Origin: Rhodococcus aetherivorans | GTDB lineage: Bacteria; Actinomycetota; Actinomycetes; Mycobacteriales; Mycobacteriaceae | Length of the DNA stretch: 64,000 bases | Assembly (NCBI RefSeq): GCF_011058165.1 | Contig: NZ_JAALEG010000018.1 | Span: 1-64,000 of the forward strand | Direction of reading: 5' to 3' | Shown here: one piece after another, positions 9,860 to 16,914 of the stretch | How positions within the stretch are numbered: position 1 is the stretch's first letter | Layout: each line of letters opens with the position of its first letter | The notes under the pieces: model-generated | What the model was told of the DNA's origin: nothing | Databases searched by the model: none | Seen by the model: the letters and a program-made list of their open reading frames with translations, nothing else | Made by a program: the position numbers and the translations under genes

Positions 9860-10846
9860 TCAGCGCAGTTCGGGCAGGACTTCCCTCTCGAACAACTCGA
9901 TGCCCGAGGTGTCGTACGCGGCCTCGGGGAAATAGAGGATCGCGTAGGTCATGCCCTGCTTCTTCAGCGCGGTGAAGTTCTCCACGATCTGCTCGGGAGT
10001 GCCGACGGCGGGCAGCCCCCGGAACGCGTCGAGCGCGCTGTCGGCCTTCTCCGGCCCGACGTACGGTTCGAGCCGCGCGCGCAGCGCATCGAGGCGCTCC
10101 TGCACCTCGGCCTCGGTCCGGCCGATCGCGACGTTGTAGTTCGCCGAGCGGACGATGGCGTCGAAGTCGGTGCCCACGTCGGCGCAGTGCCCGCGCAGGA
10201 TCTCCGACTTGTGGGCGAAGCCCTCCGGGGTGCCGTCGAAGTTGGTGTACTGCGCGTACTTGGCCGCGATCTTCAGGGTCACCTTCTCCCCGCCGCCGGC
10301 GATCCACAGCGGGATGCCGCCGTCCTGCAGCGGCAGGGGGCGCACGACGGCGCCGTCCACCTGGTAGTGCCTGCCGTGCAGGGTCGCGGTGCCGGTGGTC
10401 CAGGCCTGCCGGAAGATCTGCACGCCCTCGTCGAGCCGGCGCAGCCGTTCGGCGGCGGGCGGGAAGCCGTATCCGTACGCGCGCCACTCGTGCTCGTACC
10501 ATCCGCCGCCGATGCCCATCTCGATGCGGCCGCCGGAGATGATGTCCGCGGTCGCGGCGACCTTCGCCAGGTAGGCGGGGTTGCGGTAGCTCATGGCGGT
10601 GCACATCTGTCCGATGCGCACGTTCTCGGTGACCGCGGCGAATGCCGACACCAGCGACCAGGCCTCGTGGGTGGCCTCCTCGGTGGGCAGAGGCACGGTG
10701 TGGAAGTGGTCGTACACCCAGATCGATTCCCACGGGCCGGCATCGGCGCGCTGCGCCAGGTCGCGCATCACCCGCCACTGCTCGGCGGGATCGATGCCGA
10801 CGAGGTCGAGCCGCCAGCCCTGGGGGACGAAGAATCCGAAACGCAT
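9860..10846 (-). CDS. LLM-class F420-dependent oxidoreductase
   Basis: Luciferase-like TIM-barrel oxidoreductase of 328 residues, resembling actinobacterial F420-dependent enzymes of this class. Seen are an N-terminal MRFGFFVPQGW segment, a conserved MCTAMSYRNPAYLAK stretch, the GGGWYEHEW loop and a C-terminal VGTPEQIVENF element. It is the last gene of the minus-strand sulfur-type operon, immediately after a decayed MFS gene. ATG at 10846 is favoured because the in-frame extension to 10963 has no family similarity. The substrate is unknown; its position suggests a role in sulfur-compound or xenobiotic oxidation, which is inference. Confidence 0.85.
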   Translation of the reverse strand: MRFGFFVPQGWRLDLVGIDPAEQWRVMRDLAQRADAGPWESIWVYDHFHTVPLPTEEATHEAWSLVSAFAAVTENVRIGQMCTAMSYRNPAYLAKVAATADIISGGRIEMGIGGGWYEHEWRAYGYGFPPAAERLRRLDEGVQIFRQAWTTGTATLHGRHYQVDGAVVRPLPLQDGGIPLWIAGGGEKVTLKIAAKYAQYTNFDGTPEGFAHKSEILRGHCADVGTDFDAIVRSANYNVAIGRTEAEVQERLDALRARLEPYVGPEKADSALDAFRGLPAVGTPEQIVENFTALKKQGMTYAILYFPEAAYDTSGIELFEREVLPELR

Positions 10847-10853
10847 GTGGGTC

Positions 10854-11473
10854 CTAACTCGGTGTCGTGGTGTGTGCTGCCTTCTCGGACGCCGACGCCG
10901 GTTGCAGCGTGCGACGCGGCCAAGCCGAGTATCGCGGAATGTACCGGTACATGACGGCGGCACCGAGCATCGCGAGTCCTCCGACGGTCAGTGCGCCGGC
11001 CGCCAACGACAGCGCGGCGACGGCCCCGACCGCGAACGGGCCGGCGAACATACCGCTGTCGTGCATCAGTCGCCAGGCCGCGAGAAACTCCGCACGCGTC
11101 CGCGGCGGGGCGGTGTCGGCCCCGAGCGTCATGATGACGCCGTTGCCCAGGCCGTTGCCGATTCCGAGGAGCACGGCCACCGCCACGAGGGAGATGAGAT
11201 CGTCCGCGATCGGGAGCGCCAGAAACGCCACACCGATCACGAGCAGCGACGGCACCGCCACGACGCGGCGGCCGAAGCGGTCCATCATCTGTCCCGCCGG
11301 ATACGAACAGAGTAGGTCGACGCCACGATCAACCCGGCCACGGACACCGGGGCCCCGAGGTCGCGCGCGAGAAGCGCAACCACCGGGGCCCCGGCACCCT
11401 GCCCGATCCCGAAGATCGCGGACGGGACGAACACCGTCCGGACGAGCGACGTCGGTTCGAGGGGCGGACTCAC
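10854..11473 (-). pseudogene. MFS transporter remnant with internal deletion and frameshift
   Basis: Two pieces of one MFS transporter are joined. The GTG start at 11473 opens a frame with the first two membrane helices (SLVRTVFVPSAIFGIGQG through SVAGLIVAS). That frame then runs into a stop near 11285. A second frame, recognisable from about 11330, carries the C-terminal half: PAGQMMDRFGRR, then four to five membrane helices ending at 10854. Intact relatives of about 400 residues place this second motif in the second six-helix bundle, so roughly 190 residues are missing. The junction lies near GTGGCGTCGAC at about 11320-11332. The start overlaps the stop of the upstream monooxygenase as GTGA, so it was once a coupled operon member. 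Confidence 0.8.
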
Positions 11474-12822
11474 GCCGTCGCGGCACCCGCGTATGCGGTG
11501 GCCGCGAGGCGACCGGCCGGGCGGTCGAGCCCGTAGTGGCCGCGCAACGTCGTCGCCGTGTACTCGGTGCGGAACAGCCCGCGCTCCTGCAGGATCGGCA
11601 CCACGCGGGTGGTGAAGTCCTCGAGTCCGCCGGGCAGATACGGCGGCATGACGTTGAAGCCGTCGGCGGCCTCGCTGTCGAACCACAGCTGCAGTTCGTC
11701 GGCGATCTGTTCGGGGGTGCCGGCGAAGGTGCGGTGCCCGCGGCCGCCGCCGAGCTTCCCGATGAGCTGGCGCACGGTCAGGCCCTCGCTCTCGGCGAGG
11801 TTCTTCACCAGTTCGTAGCGGCTCTTGTTGCCCTGGATCCGGTCGATCGGCGGCAGCGGAGGCAGGGGCGCGTCCAGGGCATGCTCGGTGAGATCAACTC
11901 CCACCATCCCGGAGAGCTGGCGCAACGAGTACGCCGGCGAGATCAGGTCGGTGAACTCCTGCTCGAGCGCCTCGGCCTCGGCCTCGGTGTCGCCGATGAA
12001 CGGCACGATCCCGGGGAGCACCTTCAGGGAGTGCGGATCCCGCCCCGCCTCGGCCACGCGGGCCTTCAGGTCGCGGTAGAACGCCTGCCCCTCGGCCAGG
12101 GTGCGCTGCGCGGTGAAGACCGCCTCGGCGTACCGGGCGGCGAAATCCTTTCCGCTCTCCGAGGATCCGGCCTGTACCAGCACGGGACGGCCCTGAGGTG
12201 AGCGCGGGGAGTTCAGTGGGCCGCGCACCGTGAACCGCGCGCCGTCGTGGTCGATGGTGTGTACCTTGGCCGGGTCGGCGAAGCGGCCGCTGTCGACGTC
12301 CAGCTCGACGGCATCGTCGTCCCAGCTGTCCCACAGGTCGACGGCGACGTCGACGAACTCGGCGGCGCGGTCGTAACGGCCGGCGTGGTCCGGTGTCTCG
12401 TCGTAGCCGAAGTTGGCCGCCTCGTCGGCGCCACCCGAGGTCACGATGTTCCAGCCGGCGCGGCCGTGACTGATGTGGTCGAGCGAGGCGAACTTGCGGG
12501 CGAGGTTGAACGGCTCGTTGTAGCCGGTCGACGCGGTGGCGATCAGGCCCACCCGCTCGGTGACGACGGCCATCGCGGACAGCAGGGTGATCGGCTCGAA
12601 GACCGCCTGGATGTTGTGTTCCACGCGGGGACCGGTCGCGAGGCCGTCGGCGAAGAACACCGAGTCGAGCTTGCCGCGTTCGGCGATCTGCGCGAGCTCC
12701 TGGAAGTGTGCGACGTCGAGGACGCGGCGCTCGTCGGTGCGCGGGTGCCGCCAGGCGGCCTCGTGGTGGCCGACCCCCATCAGGAAGGCGTTGAGGTGGA
12801 ACTGCTTCGGAGACTGGGACAT
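11470..12822 (-). CDS. NtaA/SnaA/DszA-type FMN-dependent monooxygenase
   Basis: Two-component flavin monooxygenase of 450 residues in the bacterial luciferase superfamily. Family signatures include the N-terminal HLNAFLMGVGHHEAAWRHP, RVGLIATASTGYNEPFNLARK, a WNIVTSGG loop and VLVQAGSSESGKDFAARYAE. Such enzymes use FMNH2 from a separate reductase to oxidise sulfones, sulfonates, sulfides or aminocarboxylates. It follows an SsuABC-type importer by 33 bases, so a sulfonate or organosulfur substrate is likely. ATG at 12822 has a GGATAGG-type ribosome site. No flavin reductase is nearby; it must be supplied from elsewhere. Confidence 0.9.
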   Translation of the reverse strand: MSQSPKQFHLNAFLMGVGHHEAAWRHPRTDERRVLDVAHFQELAQIAERGKLDSVFFADGLATGPRVEHNIQAVFEPITLLSAMAVVTERVGLIATASTGYNEPFNLARKFASLDHISHGRAGWNIVTSGGADEAANFGYDETPDHAGRYDRAAEFVDVAVDLWDSWDDDAVELDVDSGRFADPAKVHTIDHDGARFTVRGPLNSPRSPQGRPVLVQAGSSESGKDFAARYAEAVFTAQRTLAEGQAFYRDLKARVAEAGRDPHSLKVLPGIVPFIGDTEAEAEALEQEFTDLISPAYSLRQLSGMVGVDLTEHALDAPLPPLPPIDRIQGNKSRYELVKNLAESEGLTVRQLIGKLGGGRGHRTFAGTPEQIADELQLWFDSEAADGFNVMPPYLPGGLEDFTTRVVPILQERGLFRTEYTATTLRGHYGLDRPAGRLAATAYAGAATA

Positions 12823-12855: not shown

Positions 12856-13728
12856 CTACTGGTCTGCGCGCCAGCGGGACAGTCGGCGCTCGACTGCGAC
12901 GAGGATCCCGTTGAAGGTCAGACCGACGAGGGAGATGGCGACGATGCCGGCATACATGTTCGGGATCTGGAAGTTGAGCTGCGAGGCGGTGATGAGATAG
13001 CCGAGACCTGCTTTGGCGCCGACCATCTCGGCCGCAATGAGCACGAGGATCGACGAGGCCGCAGCCATCCGGATGCCGGTGAAGATCGTCGGCACGGCAG
13101 CCGGCAGGATCACCTTCTGGAACAGGCGGTAGGAAGGCAGACCGAGGGAACGGGCCGATTTGACCAGCAGCGGATCCACGGTGCGCACGCCGGAGATGGT
13201 GTTGAGCAGGATCGGGAAGGTGCTCGCGTAGATCACCAGCGCCACCTTCGAGGTCTCGCCGATGCCCAGGATCAGGATGAACACGGGTAGCAGTGCGAGC
13301 GCGGCGGTGTTGCGGAACAGCTCGAGGATCGGGTTGAGGAACTCGGCCACCGGCCGGTACCAGCCGATCGCCACCCCGAGCGGGATCGCGACGAGCACTG
13401 CGATCACGAATCCGGTGACGGCCCGGGACAGGCTGGCGCCGAGGTGTTCGGCGAGCTGGCCACTACCGATCAGCTGGGTGAAGGCCTCCGCGACCACGGT
13501 GAAGGGCGGCAGGAACACCTCGTCGACGAGCCCGAGCCGGGGCGCGGTCTCCCAGACCGCGAGGAAGGCGAGGATCGCGAGGGCCGGCTTCACACCGCGC
13601 CATACGACGGCACCGACCCGGCGTCCGGTCCCGGCGCCCGGGGCGGGCACGGCCGGCGCGGGTCGCTGCTCCGCGAGGGCCCCGTCGAGCTCGACGGGGT
13701 CGATCAGCGTGGCGCTCGGACTAGACAT
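12856..13728 (-). CDS. ABC transporter permease, SsuC/TauC type
   Basis: Permease of 290 residues with six membrane helices and the BPD_transp_1 signature in the last third (SARSLGLPSYRLFQKVILPAA, the EAA loop that docks the ATPase). It resembles the aliphatic sulfonate/nitrate/taurine import group. ATG at 13728 has AGGAGG 6 bases upstream and overlaps the ATPase gene by 8 bases; the in-frame extension to 13752 is unneeded. It forms a transporter with the two genes before it. Confidence 0.92.
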   Translation of the reverse strand: MSSPSATLIDPVELDGALAEQRPAPAVPAPGAGTGRRVGAVVWRGVKPALAILAFLAVWETAPRLGLVDEVFLPPFTVVAEAFTQLIGSGQLAEHLGASLSRAVTGFVIAVLVAIPLGVAIGWYRPVAEFLNPILELFRNTAALALLPVFILILGIGETSKVALVIYASTFPILLNTISGVRTVDPLLVKSARSLGLPSYRLFQKVILPAAVPTIFTGIRMAAASSILVLIAAEMVGAKAGLGYLITASQLNFQIPNMYAGIVAISLVGLTFNGILVAVERRLSRWRADQ

Positions 13729-14545
13729 GCTGCACCTCCTGGGTTGCGGCACCGAACTCGTGGTGCTGCGCGCGCTCGACCTCCGAGTGCAGCAACGACC
13801 AGATCCGGTGTCGATAGTGTCGGAACGCCTCGCCGGACCGGACGTCGTCGACGGTGCGATCGATGTCGATGTCCACGACGGTCTTGATCCGCCCGGGCCG
13901 GGACGTGAGCACGGCGACGCGCTGTCCGAGGTAGATCGCCTCGTCGATGCCGTGGGTGATGAACAGGATGGTCTTGCCGGTCTCGTGCCGGATCCGCAAC
14001 AGCTCGTCCTGCAACGACTCCCGGGTCTGCGCGTCGAGGGCGGCGAACGGCTCGTCCATGAGGAGCACCTCGGGGTCGAACGCCAGGCTCCGGGCGATCG
14101 CGACGCGCTGTTTCATGCCGCCGGACAGCTCGTGCGGATAGCGATCGCCGAACCCGCGCAGCCCCACCAGCTCGAGGTAGTGCTCGGCCAGCGCGCGGCG
14201 CTGACGCCGGGGCAGGCCCTTCGCCTCGAGGCCGAATTCGATGTTGTGCCGCGCGGTGCGCCACGGCAGGAGCGCGTACTGCTGGAAGACGATGCCCCGA
14301 TCCAGGCCCGGCCCGGAGATCGGCTGTCCGTCGAGCAGGATCCGTCCCGACGTCGGGCTGCTCAGCCCGCCGAGAAGGTCGAGCAGCGTGGACTTGCCGC
14401 AGCCGCTGGGGCCGACGAGGACGAGGAACTCACCGTCGGCCAGGTCGAGGCTGACATCGTCGAGGGCAGTGAACGCGGTGTCCGTACCGCGGACCGGGAA
14501 CTGCTTGGTCACGTGCTCGAGACGGAGCTTCGGGGTGGTGCTCAT
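13721..14545 (-). CDS. ABC transporter ATPase, SsuB/TauB type
   Basis: Nucleotide-binding subunit of 274 residues. Walker A is GPSGCGKST, the Q-loop is in FQQYALLPW, the signature is LSGGMKQR, and Walker B LLMDEPFAALD is followed by ITHGIDEA. The motif set and length are typical of the nitrate/sulfonate/taurine importers. Its ATG overlaps the binding-protein stop by 4 bases (ATGA), indicating tight coupling in the operon. Confidence 0.95.
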   Translation of the reverse strand: MSTTPKLRLEHVTKQFPVRGTDTAFTALDDVSLDLADGEFLVLVGPSGCGKSTLLDLLGGLSSPTSGRILLDGQPISGPGLDRGIVFQQYALLPWRTARHNIEFGLEAKGLPRRQRRALAEHYLELVGLRGFGDRYPHELSGGMKQRVAIARSLAFDPEVLLMDEPFAALDAQTRESLQDELLRIRHETGKTILFITHGIDEAIYLGQRVAVLTSRPGRIKTVVDIDIDRTVDDVRSGEAFRHYRHRIWSLLHSEVERAQHHEFGAATQEVQHV

Positions 14546-15630
14546 TTCGCCTCCTCGACGGGTTCACCGTTCGGACCGCTCGACGGTTCGTAGGTGCCGT
14601 TGGCGTAGGGGTTGAATTCGTTGGTGTAGATGTCGGCCGGGGTGAACGTGCTCTCGGGCAGTTCGCCGTTCCGGGCGAGCCAGTCGAGCCAGGTCTGGAT
14701 CTCCTGTTCGGTGATCGTCCCGCCCGGGCCGGCGACGCCGGGGCTCTTGTAGAACTCGACGAGGTTGGTGTTCTCGTTGCGGCCGCGGCCGTTGATGATC
14801 TCCTTGTACTCGGCGATGACCTCGTCGCGTGGGGTGGTCTGTGCCCAGCGAATGGCCCGCGCCGTGCCCTGCACGAAATCCGCCACCGCGTCCCGGTTCT
14901 CGGCGATGAAGTCGTCTCGGAAGACGTACGTGCCGTAGCTGAACGCCCCGAACAGGGACTCGTCGGTGAACAGCGGACGGATCCCGCCGCGCGAGACCGC
15001 GGTCTCGCGGAACACGCTGCCGAGGGTGCCGACGTCGATCTGCCCTTCCCGCAGCGCCTGCTCGGTGTTCACCGGGGGCACCACGATCAGTTCGACCTGC
15101 TTGATTTCGTCCGGGGTCAGTCCCTGCTGGGCGAGCCATTCGCGGACGAGGAACTCGTGGTGGGCACCGAGCGTGTTCATCCCCACCTTCTTGCCGATCA
15201 GATCCCGGGCGGTGCGGATCGGGCTGTCCTCGAGCACGTAGTAGCCGTTGAACGACTCCTTGTCGGAGCCGTAGTAGCTGATGACCGACGTGATCGGCGA
15301 GTTGGCGGCGGCGAGCTTGATGACGGCGCCGTTGAATGCGCCGCCGAACTCGGTCTGGCCGGTGGCCGCGGACTGGATGTCCTGCGGACCGCTGGTGGTG
15401 TCGCCCACCCAGTCCAGCGCGACGCTCTCGTAGTAACCGAGGTTCTCCGCGAGTTCGGGATAGGTGACCTGGCCGGCCGAGCCCTGGTAGCGCAGGACGG
15501 TGCGACCGTCCTCGGTGGTGGTGGTCTCCGACCCCGAGGAGCAGGCCGCGACCCCCGCGGCGAGGGTGACGAGGGTGGCTGCGACCGCAGCCGACCGGAC
15601 CAGTCGGCTGCGCAGCGTGGAATACGACAT
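14542..15630 (-). CDS. Sulfonate-type substrate-binding lipoprotein (SsuA-like)
   Basis: Periplasmic-type binding protein of 362 residues. The N-terminus is a lipoprotein signal: Arg residues, a hydrophobic run and the lipobox AAGVAAC with Cys at about residue 30. The mature part has the NMT1/SsuA fold signatures, for example the EFGGAFNGAVIKLAAAN and IGKKVGMNTLGAHHEF segments. First structural gene of the transporter operon, 170 bases downstream of the Cys-rich leader peptide at 15801-15830. The substrate is probably an organosulfonate, inferred from the family and from the leader's cysteine codons; nitrate/taurine-type ligands remain possible. Confidence 0.9.
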   Translation of the reverse strand: MSYSTLRSRLVRSAAVAATLVTLAAGVAACSSGSETTTTEDGRTVLRYQGSAGQVTYPELAENLGYYESVALDWVGDTTSGPQDIQSAATGQTEFGGAFNGAVIKLAAANSPITSVISYYGSDKESFNGYYVLEDSPIRTARDLIGKKVGMNTLGAHHEFLVREWLAQQGLTPDEIKQVELIVVPPVNTEQALREGQIDVGTLGSVFRETAVSRGGIRPLFTDESLFGAFSYGTYVFRDDFIAENRDAVADFVQGTARAIRWAQTTPRDEVIAEYKEIINGRGRNENTNLVEFYKSPGVAGPGGTITEQEIQTWLDWLARNGELPESTFTPADIYTNEFNPYANGTYEPSSGPNGEPVEEAK

Positions 15631-15800
15631 CGCGAGAGTTGTCCCTTACGTTCGACGAAGAGGCCCGACACGGCGGGCACGGAGAAATGCGGCGCGCGGC
15701 GACAGTGAAGGCGTACGCGACACCGGGATTCGCGGTGCGGCAACGGAAGATCGCGCGACGGCGGCCGGCCGGGCCGGCACGCCGGGCTACACCGGGAGGG

Positions 15801-15830
15801 TCAGCGACAACAGTCCGGACACTCGTACAC
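15801..15830 (-). CDS. Cysteine-rich leader peptide of the sulfur operon
   Basis: Nine-codon ORF reading MYECPDCCR then TGA, starting with GTG at 15830. A perfect AAGGAG lies 6 bases before the start (15837-15842). Three of nine residues are Cys, two of them adjacent, in front of an operon for sulfonate uptake and oxidation. Short poly-Cys upstream ORFs that attenuate sulfur-assimilation operons according to cysteine supply are known in mycobacteria, so the same role is proposed here: ribosomes stalling at Cys codons under sulfur limitation would allow downstream expression. Between its stop and ssuA there are GC-rich inverted repeats such as CACCG-N7-CGGTG that could serve as the switch. The short peptide is seen directly; its function is inferred. 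Confidence 0.65.
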   Translation of the reverse strand: MYECPDCCR

Positions 15831-15863
15831 GGTGGACTCCTTCTGCGGCGATCGGACTCCGGA

Positions 15864-15893
15864 AGTCTGTCCCGGGCCGCCGCGACGGGTCAA
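15864..15893 (-). promoter_or_regulatory. Candidate promoter of the sulfur operon
   Basis: On the minus strand TTGACC (15888-15893) and CAGACT (15864-15869) are separated by 18 bases. Transcription would start about 15-20 bases before the leader's ribosome site. Confidence 0.4.
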
Positions 15894-15978: not shown

Positions 15979-15984
15979 CGCCCC

Positions 15985-16914
15985 ATGCGCACCGCCGTGC
16001 TCGCCGACGCCTTCGAGCAGCATCGGCCGCACCTGCTCTCCGTCGCCTACCGGCTGACGGGCAGCGTCGCCGACGCCGAGGACGCGGTCCAGGACGCGTG
16101 GCTGCGCCTCGACGGCGCCGACACCGACCGGATCGACGATCTGCGGGCGTGGCTGACCACCGTCGTCGGACGCCTGTGCCTCGACCGGCTGCGGTCGGCG
16201 ACGGCGCGCCGGGAGAACTATGTCGGCCAGTGGCTGCCCGAGCCGATCGTCACCCCGCTCGGCGGATCGCCGGCCCCGGATCCACTGGAAGCCGTGGTGC
16301 GGCAGGAGGACAGCAGGATGGCGGCGATGGTCGTGCTGGACACGCTCACCCCCGCCCAGCGCGTCGCCTTCGTCCTGCACGACGGGTTCGCCGTGCCGTT
16401 CGACGAGATCGCCGGCATTCTCGACGTCACGCCGGCGTCCGCGCGCCAGCTCGCCTCCCGCGGTAGGCGGGCCGTCGCGGCCGCGCCGCCCCCCGTGCCG
16501 GCCGCCGAGCACGTCGAGGCGGTGCAGCGGCTGATGACCGCCCTCGCCTCCGGGGACCTCGCGGCGGTGGTCGCGGCGCTCGATCCCGATGCCCGGGTGA
16601 TCGGAGACGCCAACGGGGTGACCCGCACGGCCGTCAACGTCGTCGTCGGCGCGGAGCGGTTCGCCCGGTTCTTCCTGGGCCTGATGCAGCGCTACGGCGC
16701 CGAGGCGTTCCTGGCCGGCACACCGGCGCTCGTCAACGGCGAACTCGGGTTCGTCAGCGGGGGCGGCCCCGGCGACGAGACCCACCGGGCCTTCGCCGGC
16801 CGGGTCGTCGGCTGCACGGTCCGCAACGGGCGGGTCTGGGCGGCCTACGACATGGCCAATCCCGACAAGCTCCGCGGCGTCCTGCTCGACCGCGGGGACG
16901 GCGACCGAGCGTAG
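15985..16914 (+). CDS. sigJ: ECF41-type sigma factor (SigJ-like)
   Basis: Sigma-70 family protein of 309 residues. Region 2 is near residues 8-75 (LLSVAYRLTGSVADAEDAVQDAWLR split: positions 18-42) and region 4 near 115-165 (TPAQRVAFVLHDGFAVPFDEIAGIL covers 117-142). A C-terminal SnoaL-like domain of about 120 residues follows; it is the hallmark of the ECF41 group and is thought to act as a built-in regulator. The nearest well-known relative is mycobacterial SigJ. The gene stands alone; ECF41 factors often control a neighbouring carboxymuconolactone decarboxylase, oxidoreductase or epimerase gene, and a CMD-family gene lies about 3 kb away at 19810-20412. Confidence 0.88.
   Translation: MRTAVLADAFEQHRPHLLSVAYRLTGSVADAEDAVQDAWLRLDGADTDRIDDLRAWLTTVVGRLCLDRLRSATARRENYVGQWLPEPIVTPLGGSPAPDPLEAVVRQEDSRMAAMVVLDTLTPAQRVAFVLHDGFAVPFDEIAGILDVTPASARQLASRGRRAVAAAPPPVPAAEHVEAVQRLMTALASGDLAAVVAALDPDARVIGDANGVTRTAVNVVVGAERFARFFLGLMQRYGAEAFLAGTPALVNGELGFVSGGGPGDETHRAFAGRVVGCTVRNGRVWAAYDMANPDKLRGVLLDRGDGDRA

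Follow-up and report, generated by a model that had tools for sequence, protein, structure and literature searches.

Cysteine-rich upstream open reading frames (uORFs) have been described in Actinobacteria before cys operons that are not preceded by terminators, and for the mycobacterial cys leaders the involvement of Rho has been proposed (PMC1262725). In M. smegmatis the ORF before cysA2 is occupied by ribosomes, and for Cys ORFs of mycobacteria a redox function has been considered as well (PMC4633059). PMC13236596 describes regulation by these ORFs as translation attenuation, citing Canestrari 2020, a precedent for mycobacterial Cys leaders that is also cited in PMC9094748. Here we analyse a putative leader of this kind in a stretch of 64,000 nucleotides of a Rhodococcus aetherivorans contig (the window), where a Cys-rich nonapeptide ORF precedes an ssu-like operon. 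We found no report of such a leader in Rhodococcus in the literature.

Like the mycobacterial leaderless poly-Cys uORFs Ms5788A and Ms4527A (NF042933, NF042936), as described in papers that cite Canestrari et al. 2020, the window uORF is short, gathers its Cys codons towards the 3' end, probably comes first ahead of a sulfur operon, and lacks a terminator. Unlike them, it is led by a Shine-Dalgarno (SD) site, has a putative 5' UTR of ~28 nt, counts 9 codons versus ~21-27, is devoid of RRxxDL, and matches no model. Members of NF042934 (cis_reg_atten, 'putative leader peptide', R-R/L-H-x-D-L-x-R ... C) occur in the same genome, at the same class of target genes, and on the orthologous operon in Nocardia-type genomes, but the window peptide has no RRHxDLxR block at all. 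With the candidate Cys leaders before actinobacterial cys operons (BMC Microbiol 2005, PMC1262725) it shares runs of Cys codons close to the stop, the lack of conserved terminator hairpins and a suspected role of Rho; those leaders, however, belong to cys/cbs operons of Mycobacterium, Propionibacterium and Bifidobacterium, whereas here we deal with a sulfonate-type operon in Rhodococcus. The window leader is best read as related to the cysteine-responsive leader peptides known from Actinobacteria, of which it would be a short variant led by an SD site; this site and the missing RRxxDL motif set it apart as a variant and not the identical element. The sequence-only reading had likened it to the mycobacterial poly-Cys uORFs, and this kinship stands for the conserved Cys-codon leader, but does not extend to the leaderless start or to the RRxxDL of the named families. 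As such, the leader extends a known kind of switch and is not a new one.

A Cys-rich nonapeptide ORF upstream of an ssu-like operon

On the minus strand, positions 15830-15801 read GTG-TAC-GAG-TGT-CCG-GAC-TGT-TGT-CGC-TGA, encoding MYECPDCCR and preceded by CGCAGAAGGAGTCCACC. The leader region comprises the following features:

15801..15830, minus strand: uORF for the leader peptide MYECPDCCR, with GTG start, three TGT Cys codons and TGA stop; conserved among relatives
15837..15842, minus strand: SD site AAGGAG of the uORF, spacing 6; relatives keep a purine-rich site
15864..15893, minus strand: probable promoter, with -35 TTGACC (15893-15888), 18-nt spacer and -10-like CAGACT (15869-15864)
15631..15800, minus strand: spacer from the uORF stop to the ssuA start, C 0.43 versus G 0.31, no intrinsic terminator
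15642..15647, minus strand: SD site AAGGGA of the ssuA-like gene, read from the sequence; predicted pairing with the uORF at P ~0.47 in the window

The sequence-only reading had announced a Cys-rich nonapeptide with an AAGGAG site 170 bases before the operon. This is what we find on the minus strand, where the uORF stop and the start of the first operon gene (ATG, 15630) are 170 bases apart, except that the start codon is GTG and not ATG. The interval that had been singled out, 15801-15893, holds the uORF together with the likely -35 and -10 elements. In relatives, an AA(C/T)CGTTG block and a TA(T/C)GGT-like -10 element are conserved before the uORF in the alignment, and the uORF is therefore likely to come first on the transcript. 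We infer the promoter from this alignment; a generic consensus promoter scan did not report the element at 15864-15893. An SD site that is strong in the window (spacing 6 nt) and SD-like in relatives, together with a putative promoter ~30 nt upstream, speaks against a leaderless start, and the uORF would be translated as an SD-led ORF.

No further copy of the nonapeptide was found in its own genome at up to 3 mismatches. A looser pattern, TGYTGYCGNTGA, gave 11 matches there versus 5 in the reversed control, and among those read, L040 included, the window copy is the only credible leader. Rfam elements were found neither in the window nor, at E values up to 1, in the leader region.

The downstream operon

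Directly downstream of the spacer lie four genes:

14542..15630, minus strand: SsuA/NMT1-like substrate-binding lipoprotein (PF09084, 76.8 bits; TIGR01728 SsuA_fam, 72.9 bits)
13721..14545, minus strand: ABC transporter ATPase of the taurine/nitrate/sulfonate type (Pfam / NCBIfam)
12856..13752, minus strand: ABC transporter permease, SaoP/TauC/SsuC-like (Pfam / NCBIfam)
11470..12822, minus strand: NtaA/DmoA/DszA-family FMN-dependent monooxygenase (TIGR03860)

The monooxygenase passes the curated cut-off of TIGR03860 (NtaA/DmoA) with 590.7 bits versus 279.7. The substrate-binding protein (SBP) is related to SsuA, and its 72.9 bits for TIGR01728 fall under the curated cut-off of 163.5 for an SsuA aliphatic sulfonate SBP, a result that we count against our preferred explanation of the leader as a cysteine sensor. 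Its identity amounts to 93% with the protein of Rhodococcus ruber NBRC 15591, and to 73-86% with those of many other Rhodococcus species, which places the window in a Rhodococcus near R. ruber.

The surroundings of the operon show a few further peculiarities. After the monooxygenase gene, a 210-aa ORF on the minus strand (10854-11486) matches MFS transporters over their N-terminal half alone, and is possibly a truncated or frameshifted gene; beyond it, at 9860-10963, lies a second luciferase-like oxidoreductase of the F420 type. On the other side, a divergent gene for a SigJ-type ECF sigma factor with a SnoaL-like C-terminal domain (15982-16914, plus strand) has its intergenic region in common with the leader. 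In several of the L049-L060 genomes (g24, opacus-type) the SBP is duplicated in tandem, the second copy directly following the first.

Conservation of the uORF among relatives

Upstream regions of orthologues were gathered from the genus and the family, and were subjected to a strict test (an SD site, a length of up to 12 codons, and two or more Cys among the final six), with dinucleotide shuffles of the same regions as control. Four Rhodococcus-type genera together pass in 31 of 41 orthologous upstream regions: 12/13 in the genus of the window, 14/21 in the erythropolis/opacus-type genus, and 3/3 and 2/4 in two further genera. Five more erythropolis-type genomes carry a 14-codon form (VFRSFPLMSLNCCR or close to it) that exceeds the strict length limit. 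When these are added, an SD-led Cys-rich uORF of 7-14 codons precedes ~36 of the 41 Rhodococcus-type orthologues, versus 0.15% of the shuffles (7/4650, strict test), which bears out the conservation at the same operon that the sequence-only reading had named as the point to check. The locus thus presents a short conserved ORF with Cys clustered before the stop and a sulfur operon downstream, as generally seen for Cys-codon leaders.

The peptides of the relatives include YECPDCCR, YECSECCR, SECRLCCR, RSCPCCR, HSCPNCR, FQCFGCRS, FQCSSCRS, FECCSCRS, SSCCLCV and FSSCRCCR; in all of this variation, two or three Cys stay near the stop while the neighbouring residues change. A degenerate DNA pattern of the YEC/FQC/FEC type matched 17 times in 401 genomes, each time (17/17) shortly upstream of the SBP gene, and its reversed control did not match in these genomes at all, so that the uORF is specific to the ssu-like operon. 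Furthermore, of 11 species pairs, 10 show stronger conservation of the SD site and uORF (88-100% identity) than of the spacer (57-86%); in the remaining pair the two are equal (98%). Nine codons on their own are weak evidence, but conservation and operon specificity refute a chance ORF, to which we give practically no credence.

Could the peptide itself be functional, as a metal- or thiol-binding microprotein or, through Cys oxidation, as a redox sensor? Three Cys in nine residues, and the redox option mentioned above for mycobacterial Cys ORFs (PMC4633059), would be in line with such a function. However, with a length of only 7-14 residues, a variable Cys spacing and no fixed CxxC motif across relatives, we regard it as very unlikely.

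The transporter gene is retained at the loci L009 and L034 (genus g1, Rhodococcus sp. CH91), but its uORF and the flanking leader are missing, apparently through deletion. That L009 keeps this gene without the uORF counts against our preferred explanation; at the same time these loci are a natural experiment on how the gene is expressed when the leader is absent.

Known cysteine leaders in the same genome and in Nocardia-type genomes

Since nine residues alone are too short for an NCBIfam search, the peptide was searched together with its upstream in-frame extension. It matched none of the leader models NF042934, NF042933 and NF042936, and the R-R-x-x-D-L-x-R block is absent from it. Elsewhere in this genome, at another sulfur locus, a peptide did score above the NF042934 cut-off, and the search with this model and its follow-up yielded about six RRHxDL-type Cys leaders, mostly at sulfur-related loci, several of which lie below the curated cut-offs (L168-L174):

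C166: RRHxDL-type Cys leader with five Cys, before a sulfite reductase gene
C172: RRHxDL-type Cys leader, before a DUF4395/rhodanese pair
C59: RRHxDL-type Cys leader, before an OsmC protein gene
C22: RRHxDL-type Cys leaders, before a flavin reductase gene and other genes of a luciferase-like monooxygenase cluster
C196: RRHxDL-type Cys leader, before an oxidoreductase gene

Leaders resembling NF042934, NF042933 or NF042936 thus stand at the sulfite reductase, rhodanese and flavin reductase loci of this genome. Separately from these, a second poly-Cys leader, MVGTSHAQVVIARVVGTHAPACCCR, with three TGT codons and a GGAGG site (L162:2483-2560, minus strand; C22:30482-30559), precedes an operon for a 2OG-Fe(II) oxygenase and an NlpA-type lipoprotein; no NCBIfam leader model matched it.

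At the operon orthologous to that of the window, 16 of 30 genomes of genus g23, which is probably Nocardia judging from its similarity to the named N. fusca locus, carry a RRRAVDLMRVPHGICR-like leader of the known type (RRxxDLMR...C(C)R). Therefore, the same operon has one type of Cys leader in Nocardia-type genomes and a shorter one in Rhodococcus. Neither type was found upstream of the orthologues in Cellulomonas and several other genera. The sequence-only reading had suggested that the leader would help to assign the transporter to sulfur rather than to nitrate or other substrates; with a genuine, conserved Cys-codon leader here and known Cys leaders at sulfur loci of the same genome, this is borne out, and the leader strengthens the sulfur assignment of the transporter and monooxygenase operon. 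More generally, it provides a sequence handle for assigning SsuA/TauA/NrtA-type transporters to sulfur. With it, Cys-codon leaders also reach beyond the cysteine operons of mycobacteria, to an operon for organosulfur scavenging in Rhodococcus, the genus used in desulfurization work.

The choice of Cys codon is inverted in the leaders, with a TGT:TGC ratio of 45:5 in 20 distinct leaders versus 22:150 in 40 likely genes of the window, counts that treat relatives as independent. Among the 15 distinct canonical leaders of the Nocardia type (L098-L120), 14 use TGT for the first Cys, and where a second Cys is present its codon is mostly TGC, giving 15 TGT to 5 TGC overall; the UGU preference is therefore not limited to the short form. 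This bias suggests that the letters of the RNA count as well as the residue, and would suit a short ORF that holds ribosomes on a long 5' UTR, or buffers it, without sensing cysteine, the Cys content then reflecting some other constraint on a UGU-rich RNA. But Cys is kept while the other codons change, the pattern is found only at the ssu-like operon, and Nocardia-type genomes have a different Cys leader in the same place, all of which makes such a role improbable.

Putative mechanism and its output

We consider it likely that the nonapeptide uORF serves the ssu-like operon as a cysteine-sensing leader, because it is conserved in ~36/41 orthologues and operon-specific, keeps its Cys while the neighbours change, and prefers TGT; because Nocardia-type orthologues and sulfur loci of the same genome carry known Cys leaders; and because the operon combines a TIGR03860 monooxygenase with an SsuA-like transporter. 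What it would sense, by analogy, is charged tRNA-Cys, and from the mycobacterial precedent the operon would be induced under cysteine limitation through pausing at the Cys codons. Judging from the sequence, the uORF would be transcribed from the promoter ~30 nt upstream and be translated first. With charged tRNA-Cys in plentiful supply, the ribosome would pass the Cys codons, stop at the TGA just beyond and leave, keeping expression of the downstream genes low. When cysteine is scarce, it would instead pause on the TGT codons beside the stop, and the transporter and monooxygenase would be expressed more strongly.

How would a paused ribosome be translated into output? A trp-type attenuator is not what we find, as there are no terminator-like sites in the leader or spacer and the fold of the leader is unremarkable (z 0.11); nor did the window sequence show a convincing RNA switch. 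In the genus of the window, the uORF region may pair with the SD site of ssuA and thereby hide it, which amounts to translational control; this is proposed because predicted pairing in the free RNA reaches 0.47 in the window and 0.55-0.80 in 7 of 11 congeners. When a ribosome is modelled on the first Cys codon, accessibility of the ssuA SD site clearly increases in some congeners. Several results nevertheless count against our preferred explanation: in the window, accessibility goes from 0.27 to 0.22, so that the site is not freed; folding of the window leader shows no unusual stability compared to shuffles (z 0.11); and in the opacus/erythropolis group predicted pairing of uORF and SD is rare. 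Covariation of the two is likewise missing, since leaders and SD sites swapped between species give similar duplex energies, matched pairs being no better (permutation p 0.29).

The same sensor could instead act through Rho. Once the ribosome leaves the uORF, Rho would load on the C-rich, G-poor spacer and transcription would end before ssuA, while a paused ribosome would mask the loading site. An excess of C over G in the spacer of 37/37 leaders (C/G at least 1.19, counted within these leaders), C/U-rich runs directly 3' of the stop in the opacus group, the missing intrinsic terminator and the Rho proposal for mycobacterial cys leaders (PMC1262725) are all consistent with this output, which we hold to be a serious possibility, though short of probable. 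Of the two outputs of the cysteine sensor, we give translational control a narrow preference over Rho-dependent termination.

By eye, a conserved hairpin (GCCCG..CGGGC-like) seemed to lie just upstream of the ssuA SD site in several genera; its local folding barely exceeds that of shuffles (mean z -0.35) and MAFFT did not align it, which led us to reject it.

Rhodococcus might even possess a minimal cysteine sensor of its own, a leader of 7-9 codons with an SD site and without RRxxDL, whose Cys codons, UGU and not UGC, would serve in sensing tRNA-Cys and, in some members of the genus, also in pairing with the ribosome binding site further downstream, uniting sensor and switch in one segment. 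We put this forward as a speculative, rather doubtful extension. Either way, the short form, without RRxxDL and with inverted Cys codon usage, provides a simple system for studying how leaders without terminators work, a question dating from 2005 (PMC1262725). In one congener, L007, a TGC codon breaks one of the predicted pairs between uORF and SD site.
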